Below are positions 52,815 to 54,932 of a stretch of DNA of 64,000 nt, one piece after another. A model generated the notes under the pieces. That model saw only the letters and a list, made by a program, of their open reading frames with translations. It made no database searches and had not been told where the DNA came from. Origin of the DNA: Comamonadaceae bacterium (lineage in GTDB: Bacteria > Pseudomonadota > Gammaproteobacteria > Burkholderiales > Burkholderiaceae_C); assembly GCA_947445115.1 (NCBI GenBank), contig CANFCG010000009.1, positions 1 through 64,000 of the forward strand, written 5' to 3'. A program made the translations under genes and the position numbers. The first letter of the stretch is position 1; each line of letters begins with the position of its first letter.

Positions 52815-52891
52815 TGGTAGGCGGTATTGGAATCGAACCAACGACCTCCTCGATGTCAACGAGGCGCTCTAACCATCTGAGCTAACCGCCT
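52815..52891 (-). tRNA. tRNA-Val (anticodon GAC)
   Basis: Minus-strand cloverleaf with acceptor AGGCGGT / ACCGCCT, discriminator A and encoded CCA. The D-arm is GCTCAGATGGTTAGAGC, the anticodon stem CCTCG / CGAGG encloses loop TTGACAT (anticodon GAC), and the T-arm is GTTGGTTCGATTCCAAT. It lies just downstream of the iron operon, on the same strand. Confidence 0.95.
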
Positions 52892-52948: not shown

Positions 52949-53692
52949 TTAAAACTCGTATTCTGTTTGAACTCGAAGTATCGTTGCAGGCGAGGCAGTC
53001 GTTGTGCCATGCAAGAGTGCTGCGTTCCATTTAACTTTTTGTTTCGGCGCTAAGTTAATAGCACCAAAAATAGCGGGGCCAAATTGATGGATTTGATTCG
53101 ATGAACTATCCCAGTTGTAAGGCCTTCCCACAGATCCGAAGGCTTGTGCGCCCCATTCAAACTGAGTCGATTGACGATACTTGAGCTGCATTTGGTACTG
53201 TAGCACGGTATCAAATGAGGCGCTCGCTTGCACATGTTTTTGGATCAATACGTTTAAATTTCCTTGGATCTGCCCCCACTCCTTTTGAATGAGTGGACCA
53301 TAGGTGATTTCGTAACCTTCCGTACGATCCTTGGGGCGTTCGATCTCTAGTAAAAATCCAAGATCAATGGGATGCTTGCCTGTCTCGAGCAATTGAAATT
53401 TATTCTCCCACTCCCATGCGTCAAAGGCATTGGTTTCGCCAGGGAGGGCTTGATATTTTGCATAGATCTCTGTGAACCACCACGAGTTAACTCCCAGGCC
53501 TAAACCCAAAGAAGCGGCCGATTGGCGTGTACCATCTTTATTTTTTTGCCCCCCCCACTTGAAATCAATTTCACGTTCGCCCTCCTCAACGTTGGCCATG
53601 CGAACGTAATCGTTGGGGGCGGCGTACACCGTACTCATCGAAATCAGCGCCGAGCAGGCAAGCAGCGGCCCAAGCGCCTTAAAGCATTTCAT
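52949..53692 (-). CDS. Predicted outer-membrane beta-barrel protein (iron operon)
   Basis: This 247-residue precursor has a signal peptide cleaved near VYAA-PN (about residue 25). It is rich in alternating hydrophobic and aromatic strands (ASLGLGLGVNSWWFTEIYAKYQAL, NLNVLIQKHVQAS) and ends in Phe, as outer-membrane barrels do. I do not recognise a named family. It is 23 bases downstream of the FTR1 permease on the same strand, so it is probably part of the same Fur-controlled transcript and might be an iron-related porin or scaffold. That role is inference. Confidence 0.65.
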   Translation of the reverse strand: MKCFKALGPLLACSALISMSTVYAAPNDYVRMANVEEGEREIDFKWGGQKNKDGTRQSAASLGLGLGVNSWWFTEIYAKYQALPGETNAFDAWEWENKFQLLETGKHPIDLGFLLEIERPKDRTEGYEITYGPLIQKEWGQIQGNLNVLIQKHVQASASFDTVLQYQMQLKYRQSTQFEWGAQAFGSVGRPYNWDSSSNQIHQFGPAIFGAINLAPKQKVKWNAALLHGTTTASPATILRVQTEYEF

Positions 53693-53715
53693 ATTTATCC
53701 TTTAGATTGAATTGG

Positions 53716-54531
53716 CTATTTTTTTAAAGCCATACGCTTGGCTTGCTGCGTTGCAAGAGCAATGAGGGCGATAGCGCCGGCATAAAACAGGAGCTGTAGA
53801 GGGGAAGGCCTTGCGTCATAGCCTACCAAGGCACGAAAGATCGCCCCTATCGCTGAATCCATGGGTAAAACGGACGATGTATCCCATAGTGGCTCTGTCC
53901 ATCGCTGAATTAAGCCCGATTGCGTTAGTGCTCTTGCTAATTGAGCCGCCAAAGCCCCTGCCATGACGAGTACCCAGGCGTTTGTCACGGTAAAAAAATG
54001 CTGGACTTTGATTCTGGACAGCCCTGCATAAACCAGAGCGCCGCAAACCACGCCAGAGACTAATCCAATACCAACGCCCACCAACATCGAACGGCCATCT
54101 TGTGCTGAGCCTGACATAAAACCTGAAACAAAAATGACGGTTTCGCTACCTTCGCGCAAAACAGCAAGCGCCACCGCTATTGCAAGCGCCCATAAGGTGC
54201 CAGAGCCACTCTTTGCCACATATCCCAATTGCTTAGCTGTTTGAACGGTCTCTTGGGTATGTGTTGACACCCAAACACAGTGCCAAGTCAACATGAGCAA
54301 TGCAATAGAGATGATGCTGATGTTGAGAAAATCTTGCCCAAGACCTTCACCTAATGCACTAATGCGCTCCATGGCGAATGCCAAGCCTACTGCGCCAAGG
54401 CTACCAGCGACCACGCCCAAACTGAGCCACTGGGTGCGGCGTAGTAATCCACGTGTGGCGGCTGCGATGATTCCGACAAATAAGGCGGCTTCAAGCGTCT
54501 CACGAAAAACGATGAGTGCAGTCGCAAACAT
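53716..54531 (-). CDS. FTR1-family iron permease
   Basis: Transports iron across the inner membrane. The 271-residue protein has seven hydrophobic segments and both iron-exchange REXXE motifs: RETLE (10-14) in the first helix and REGSE (126-130) in the fourth. It resembles the EfeU/FtrC permease. It is 2 bases after the cupredoxin gene, which supports an Ftr-type ferrous iron system. No P19/FtrA or FtrD polyferredoxin gene is present. Confidence 0.92.
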   Translation of the reverse strand: MFATALIVFRETLEAALFVGIIAAATRGLLRRTQWLSLGVVAGSLGAVGLAFAMERISALGEGLGQDFLNISIISIALLMLTWHCVWVSTHTQETVQTAKQLGYVAKSGSGTLWALAIAVALAVLREGSETVIFVSGFMSGSAQDGRSMLVGVGIGLVSGVVCGALVYAGLSRIKVQHFFTVTNAWVLVMAGALAAQLARALTQSGLIQRWTEPLWDTSSVLPMDSAIGAIFRALVGYDARPSPLQLLFYAGAIALIALATQQAKRMALKK

Positions 54532-54533
54532 AA

Positions 54534-54875
54534 TTACTCCACGACCACAACGCCTTTAGCGGTTGCTTCGTTGTATTCGCCAAAAAACTCATAACGACCA
54601 GGCTTCAATGGGCCAATATAAATGGTGGCTTTTATTCCGCTAGGAACGACTTTCTCTCGGTTTAACTTATGGCTTTCAAACTCTTCGGGCGTACTGTCTT
54701 GGTTGTGCACGACTAGTTTAATTCGCTGATTCGCAGGCACTTTGATTTCGGTGGGTTCGAAGCGATGATTCTTGATGACAAGCAAAACCTCAAGCTCTGC
54801 TGCAAAGCTTTGCAAAGAGCCCAAGAGGAGAAGGGATGCAAGAAGCGATCGGATAAATACGGGGCGAGTTAGCAT
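54534..54875 (-). CDS. Periplasmic cupredoxin-like protein (FtrB-type)
   Basis: This 113-residue precursor has a signal peptide cleaved near SFAA-EL (about residue 26), then a cupredoxin fold (VLLVIKNHRFEPTEIKVPANQRIKLVVHNQDSTPEEFESH and GPLKPGRYEFFGEYNEATAKG). It has no cysteine, so it cannot form a type-1 blue copper site, as in other FTR1-associated members. In Ftr systems this protein is thought to work with the permease in Fe(II) uptake. The ATG at 54875 (GGAG upstream) is preferred over a TTG at 54881. Confidence 0.88.
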   Translation of the reverse strand: MLTRPVFIRSLLASLLLLGSLQSFAAELEVLLVIKNHRFEPTEIKVPANQRIKLVVHNQDSTPEEFESHKLNREKVVPSGIKATIYIGPLKPGRYEFFGEYNEATAKGVVVVE

Positions 54876-54911
54876 TTTCAAAACTCCAGTTTTTTGGGAT
54901 GCGTCAATTGT

Positions 54912-54932
54912 AATTGAGAATTATTCTCAATT
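54912..54932 (-). promoter_or_regulatory. Fur box
   Basis: A perfect 21-bp palindrome: 10-bp half-site AATTGAGAAT, one central T, then ATTCTCAATT. This matches the GAGAAT-N-ATTCTC core of Fur boxes. It lies 36 bases upstream of the cupredoxin start, with a TTGCCA (minus strand, 54941-54946) as possible -35, so Fur binding would block the promoter when iron is plentiful. Confidence 0.88.

Follow-up and report, generated by a model that had tools for sequence, protein, structure and literature searches.

A presumed cupredoxin-FTR1 operon behind a Fur-like box, ending in a predicted, unnamed outer-membrane barrel: a putative dedicated route for ferrous iron

The window, by which we mean the whole stretch of 64,000 nucleotides analysed here, belongs to a Comamonadaceae genome of 2.34 Mb that is 97.2% complete. 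Read along the minus strand, on which all three genes of interest lie, a palindrome of 21 bp (54912-54932) is followed by a gene for a periplasmic cupredoxin (54534-54881), a gene for a 271-aa inner-membrane permease of the FTR1 family (53716-54531) and a gene for a 247-aa protein (52949-53692), presumably the last of the operon. Then come tRNA-Val (52815-52891) and a PhaR-type gene; PhaR-type and acyl-CoA dehydrogenase genes are the neighbours recognised with Pfam. The cupredoxin and FTR1 genes are 2 nt apart, the FTR1 and third genes 23 nt apart, and AAGGAT stands just ahead of the third gene. Because the gaps are so short and the third gene has this element, we infer that the three genes are probably on a single transcript. 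A promoter scan found no sigma-70-like site above chance ahead of the third gene, and the promoter and terminator scan of the locus gave nothing above chance.

The palindrome, AATTGAGAATTATTCTCAATT, is a perfect inverted repeat round a central T with the core TGAGAAT-N-ATTCTCA, and it is of the Fur 7-1-7 type. With up to three mismatches allowed, the 64-kb window contains no other match, 0.00 being expected from 100 dinucleotide shuffles. Its score is 14/14, and none of 300 shuffles was as good. It resembles the Fur consensus and is presumed to be the operator. Fur binding at this site and repression with iron are inferred from that likeness, as there are no binding data.

The cupredoxin matches Cupredoxin_1 (E=1.4e-31) and FtrB of Brucella (8vuk, E=1.3e-10). 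It has 115 residues if counted from a TTG; the start is likely the ATG at 54875, which has a better placed GGAG. Is it an iron carrier or a copper oxidase? Its E67, E69 and E76 correspond to E84, E86 and E93 of FtrB, that is, all three iron-binding Glu are present, whereas the copper residues D118 and H121 of FtrB are not kept and are G101 and N104 in the window protein. Among 81 cupredoxins linked to the barrel described below, E84 and E93 are invariant (81/81), and position 86 is E in 70 and D in 11. Position 118 is G in 72 of the 81, position 121 is N in 49 and H in 24, and H56 is kept in 67. No Cys was found in any of the 81, the first 15 residues of the match being left out of the count. 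Since the iron-binding Glu are kept while the copper residues are mostly replaced, the residues of the window cupredoxin point more to an iron carrier than to a proven copper oxidase. In one study, the FtrB of five-component systems called 'Cluster III' has H56, often G118, and D at position 86 (PMC11966278); the window cupredoxin differs in having E there.

The permease matches PF03239 (Pfam, E=6.1e-29) and carries two RExxE motifs, RETLE and REGSE. Against the EfeU equivalog model of NCBIfam it reaches 124.8 bits, and the cut-off of 255 is not met. There is a second FTR1 gene in the genome (G000:C8:9936-10598, which is L002:1402-2163 on the minus strand), preceded by TGAGAATGATTCTCA; with 119.1 bits against 255, it was ruled out as EfeU. 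The head-to-head neighbour of this second gene, with a Fur-like box between the two, is an MbnH/MauG-like di-heme gene (L002:2280-3512), the MbnH/MauG-like call resting on weak matches below the cut-off. A shorter-matching kind of FTR1, like this second copy, is present in all five genomes of the genus. A preliminary description of this DNA had reported a perfect 21-bp Fur-type palindrome ahead of the three genes, a cupredoxin without Cys and an FTR1 with both RExxE motifs. The palindrome and both motifs were found as described, and the cupredoxin sequence contains no Cys.

What, then, is the third protein? It had been described as an unrecognised outer-membrane protein ending in Phe, with a profile search, a beta-barrel prediction and a count of neighbourhoods beside FTR1 proposed as checks. 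The protein matches no Pfam family at E<=1 and nothing in NCBIfam or PHROGs, and its family profile has no match at E<=10 among PDB sequences. A Pfam scan of 35 members gave only weak matches, with OMP_b-brl in 6 (best E=0.001), Porin_7 in 2 and three families once each, and a known family was therefore rejected. AlphaFold2 run with 33 sequences gives a 12-strand barrel behind a low-confidence N-terminus, with a mean pLDDT of 91.0 and a pTM of 0.83. The C-terminus is EYEF, and a signal peptide of about residues 1-24 ending in VYA (53621-53692, minus strand) was assigned by eye in the low-confidence start of the model. In agreement with the preliminary description, the third protein is confidently predicted to be a 12-strand outer-membrane barrel, of a family that has no name.

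Among the fold matches listed, the best are FapF (5o65; Z 21.3, 2.3 A, 207 residues) and the COG4313 channel (4rl8; Z 20.7), followed by KdgM (4pr7; Z 18.6), autotransporter barrels and NanC, and the copper protein PcoB (Z 12.0) is also among them; barrel families outside these matches are not excluded. The COG4313 channel, FapF and KdgM share the 12-strand channel fold with the window barrel, but their identity in the structural alignment is 9-11% and there is no sequence-level PDB match. The proteins closest in fold are transporters of polypeptides, of hydrophobic compounds or of sugars. What might pass through the window barrel? With inward positions assigned by hydropathy alternation, 72 strand positions face in (33 homologues). 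Twelve inward positions are acidic in at least 70% of the 33 homologues (E41, D43, E75, E94, E96, D110, E116, E118, E128, E138, E244 and E246), and eight are conserved as basic, one of which is Ala in the window protein. The twelve conserved acidic positions suggest, and do not show, that the barrel prefers cations.

The barrel is not a local ORFan, an idea ruled out by homologues in many genomes. Among 100 near relatives, 10 have a member of the family by single-sequence search, and the profile detected the family in 45/369 genomes of the class and 56/398 of the phylum. Strong homologues, defined as E<=1e-28, occur in 36 genomes of the class set; in the proposed count of neighbourhoods, FTR1 adjoins 32 of the 36 and the cupredoxin 33. 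In G474 and a few others Pfam no longer recognises the degraded FTR1, which was detected with a purpose-built profile. The four strong homologues without FTR1 comprise a barrel alone (G144), two cupredoxin-barrel pairs (G411 and G134) and one barrel at a contig end (G445). Nine weaker hits of the class set, eight of whose loci were inspected, have FTR1 beside them in no case. For 29 loci of the genome_contigs set, picked by likeness to the window protein, all three genes are present in 18, the cupredoxin and barrel in 3 and the barrel alone in 8. The acyl-CoA dehydrogenase, PhaR and RimO proteins of the window's flank were matched in none of these 29 loci (E<=1e-5), so that trio and flank are not conserved together.

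The solo and cupredoxin-only copies rule out a barrel strictly bound to FTR1. At the same site in another genome of the genus (G004:C15, L045), the RimO/PhaR flank and the cupredoxin-FTR1 pair are kept and the barrel gene is absent. The barrel profile has no match in that genome, which is 78% complete, and a single-sequence search found no barrel in G001-G003. The barrel is dispensable, as cupredoxin-FTR1 occurs without it in the same genus. One explanation is that the barrel is a broad-specificity porin of iron starvation, admitting reductants, small chelates or nutrients, and is merely co-regulated with an FTR1 uptake that does not depend on it. The solo copies, the cupredoxin-FTR1 pair without a barrel and the absence of metal ions from the cargo of FapF, the COG4313 channel and KdgM agree with this. 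Yet FTR1 beside 32 of 36 strong homologues, together with 22 genomes in which both proteins are encoded in one frame, is more than shared regulation needs, and we consider such a porin unlikely.

The trio travels on mobile DNA. Near-identical copies of it (L024, L026, L042 and L059) are hosted by Cupriavidus, a Burkholderiaceae MAG and a conjugative Hydrogenophaga plasmid, and their barrel gene is broken by an in-frame TAG; that of L035 likewise has one. Solo barrels of family f239 (L136, L145 and L146) are found near response-regulator genes and near cytochrome-like genes encoding PVFARKYGxxCxSCH.

The most surprising part of the finding is the reading frame shared by FTR1 and the barrel. A single unbroken frame encodes both in 22 genomes from nine families (f7, f42, f132, f150, f164, f173, f188, f239 and f285); f239 has 11 of them. 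Nine come from the class set, 12 from the phylum set, and one is G065. The frame has 511-526 codons in 21 of the 22 and 486 in L127, which is cut by a contig end. The cupredoxin is just upstream in 21; for L123 none was found in its short stretch of sequence. Permease and barrel are connected by a loop that has 1-7 Lys/Arg and 0-1 Asp/Glu within 22 residues, followed by a hydrophobic stretch and, by pattern match in 21/22, an Ala-x-Ala type site; L068 ends in QLHA. This linker looks like an internal signal peptide. In the AlphaFold2 model of one fusion (mean pLDDT 85.7, pTM 0.58), the FTR1 part is helical, residues 273-289 form a helix of their own and there are 12 strands; Pfam recognised FTR1 alone in the three fused proteins scanned.

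Did the fusion occur only once? On a tree of 108 rows, 20 of the 22 fused rows fall within one set of 38, and 10 changes are required to account for the fused label, of which well-supported branches force at least 6. A single origin was rejected on these grounds. The fusion thus arose or was undone several times, and joining and splitting may both have happened. Repeated joining of the permease with the barrel speaks for one shared route. A signal peptidase presumably cuts the product into permease and barrel, an inference without cleavage data. Separate synthesis of the barrel from an internal start is not excluded; an in-frame ATG is present in the linker of 9/22 fusions, and a start of any kind with a good Shine-Dalgarno in 1/22. 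A precedent would be FbcH, the cytochrome b-c1 precursor of Bradyrhizobium, where an internal signal peptide links a polytopic inner-membrane protein to an exported protein. The present case differs in that its exported part would be an outer-membrane barrel and its cleavage has not been shown. If one chain is indeed cut in two, it would be a bacterial polyprotein with parts in the inner and the outer membrane, and the two transporters would be made in a fixed 1:1 ratio.

Is there any regulation common to these loci? For each locus, the highest-scoring 15-mer in the 375 bp before the first matched domain was taken and judged against 300 shuffles (p<=0.05). Duplicate versions of a locus and those with short flanks had been removed beforehand, and L020 and L123 have too little upstream sequence. 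Fur-like boxes were found in 25/34 trios, 18/21 fusions, 6/7 cupredoxin-barrel pairs and 14/28 solo copies, leaving 9 trios, 3 fusions and 14 solo copies without one; only 1/18 of the loci linked to two-component genes has a box. A smaller locus set gave 34/47 for non-linked loci with cupredoxin, 7/13 for solo copies and 0/13 for linked loci.

The 18 linked rows form one clade with support 100/98, and kinase sequence lies upstream in all 18 (L078 was judged in its longer version, L106). This clade serves as an inner control, since the box is gone where the kinase is present. Both RExxE motifs are lost in 8/18 of its FTR1 proteins (L043, L044, L066, L111-L113, L149 and L150) compared with 0/57 elsewhere, and these RExxE-less trios are possibly iron sensors rather than importers. 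The RExxE of an Fe2+-sensing kinase was tried as a sign in the linked kinases and rejected, the only instance being REPSE in L044 and its near copy L105. Could the whole module be a sensor, with barrel, cupredoxin and FTR1 reporting external iron to a regulator and uptake being secondary? The upstream kinases, the near absence of boxes and the loss of RExxE motifs in this clade would all fit. But no such kinase adjoins the window locus or the other classes in the loci inspected, and those classes keep both motifs in 57/57 FTR1 proteins and often have Fur-like boxes. We regard a general sensing role as quite improbable.

A further question is whether the barrel is tied to iron where FTR1 is missing. 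Seven Burkholderiales loci with a solo barrel (L018, L019, L021, L028, L032, L033 and L037) all have boxes scoring 12-14 of 14 just upstream, and their genomes have FeoB in 7/7 and FTR1 in 0/7. As the seven are one clade, they count as few events. No box precedes the solo copy L015, whose genome has no FeoB match, or the solo copies L006, L050 and L051, which belong to the window's own family. In G763, a 100% complete genome with no FTR1 match, feoA-feoB is the head-to-head neighbour of a cupredoxin-barrel pair that has a box of 13/14. A head-to-head feoAB also accompanies the trios of L013 and L014, which have the shortest tree paths to the window. Such feoAB neighbours amount to three distinct loci only. 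FeoB is found in 10/11 genomes without FTR1 against 10/21 with it (Fisher p=0.023, 32 genomes, kinship uncorrected); the window genome gave no match to FeoB_C. Transport of another metal such as copper or manganese, or export, could also be imagined, as PcoB is among the fold matches and TMEM165/GDT1 and dmeF genes are found close to the mobile copy in Hydrogenophaga. The Fur-like boxes, the feoAB neighbours, the FtrB-type Glu and the lack of Cys in 81 cupredoxins fit instead the import of iron under starvation, and we give this other possibility very little credence indeed.

The reading we prefer, and consider reasonably probable, is a Fur-controlled route for ferrous iron, from a dedicated outer-membrane channel to a Glu-rich cupredoxin and then to FTR1, or elsewhere to FeoB, with transport and Fur binding both inferred. 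Iron-loaded Fur would occupy the palindrome at 54912-54932 and keep the operon off, and in low iron the three proteins would be made. The 12-strand barrel would pass ferrous iron through a lumen lined with conserved Glu and Asp. In the periplasm the cupredoxin may bind the iron with E67, E69 and E76 and hand it over to FTR1, perhaps with oxidation to Fe(III), and FTR1 would carry it inward through its RExxE helices. The barrel would then be an exchangeable outer-membrane module, working elsewhere with FeoB instead of FTR1. Passage of iron through the barrel, the direction of transport and the iron oxidiser are inferred. The tie between barrel and iron is supported by synteny, by the frames shared with FTR1, by the boxes before solo copies and by the feoAB neighbours. 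A wider claim can be made only tentatively: that the barrels are an unnamed, widespread family of ferrous-iron-specific channels working with a Glu-rich cupredoxin and FTR1 or FeoB, and that in at least 22 genomes the permease and barrel are one polyprotein split by signal peptidase.

Ferrous iron is usually taken to cross the outer membrane by diffusion through general porins, and how it gets across is seldom asked about. A barrel with Fur-like boxes and with FTR1, cupredoxin or feoAB as its neighbours would make a dedicated Fe(II) gate a recurrent feature in Proteobacteria, and it offers a gene that can be tested.

How does the trio compare with known systems? FtrABCD of Brucella, Bordetella and Burkholderia and FtrAPBCD of Rubrivivax gelatinosus resemble the window in having an FtrB-related cupredoxin followed by FTR1, with the iron-binding Glu of FtrB kept (PMC11966278). 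The trio differs from FtrABCD in its third gene, a barrel, in the copper residues D118 and H121, which are mostly replaced, and in the lack of P19 and of a Fer4_5 polyferredoxin. The preliminary description had noted that P19 (FtrA) and a polyferredoxin (FtrD) are lacking at the locus and had held that homologues elsewhere in the genome would refute a variant system. None was found: there are 0 matches to P19 (PF10634) in the 97.2% complete genome and 0 to Fer4_5 (PF12801) among 39 candidates scored. Of the features of FtrABCD, FTR1 (FtrC) and the FtrB-type cupredoxin are thus met, while the copper residues, FtrA and FtrD are not. Two genomes with the trio also have a P19-cupredoxin-FTR1-polyferredoxin locus (L052 in G126, L053 in G103); since they carry both, the trio is not simply a broken FtrABCD. 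The third gene had been suggested to be either a channel dedicated to ferrous iron or a stand-in for the missing parts. The first suggestion stands, by association only; the second found no support, as no likeness of the barrel to P19 or a polyferredoxin was found and these two genomes have both systems.

In L052 (G126:C3) the order is P19, an OprB-family porin, cupredoxin, FTR1 and polyferredoxin, so an unrelated barrel lies inside an Ftr cluster. Should this porin be FtrP, two different barrel families would each have given rise to an outer-membrane partner for FTR1, and the notion would in part have been published already. A cupredoxin-FTR1-barrel operon or an FTR1-barrel fusion was not met with in the literature searched, which was limited to titles, the starts of abstracts and open-licence texts. 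EfeUOB is like the trio in its RExxE-bearing FTR1-type permease and the cupredoxin fold of EfeO type; it is unlike it in that the window FTR1 scores below the EfeU cut-off, no EfeO or EfeB lies beside the trio (in the operon only) and a barrel is present. For an outer-membrane protein serving ferrous iron there is a precedent in FupA of Francisella, which does so beside FeoB and is an exception to the general-porin view (PMC4905997, PMC7432831).
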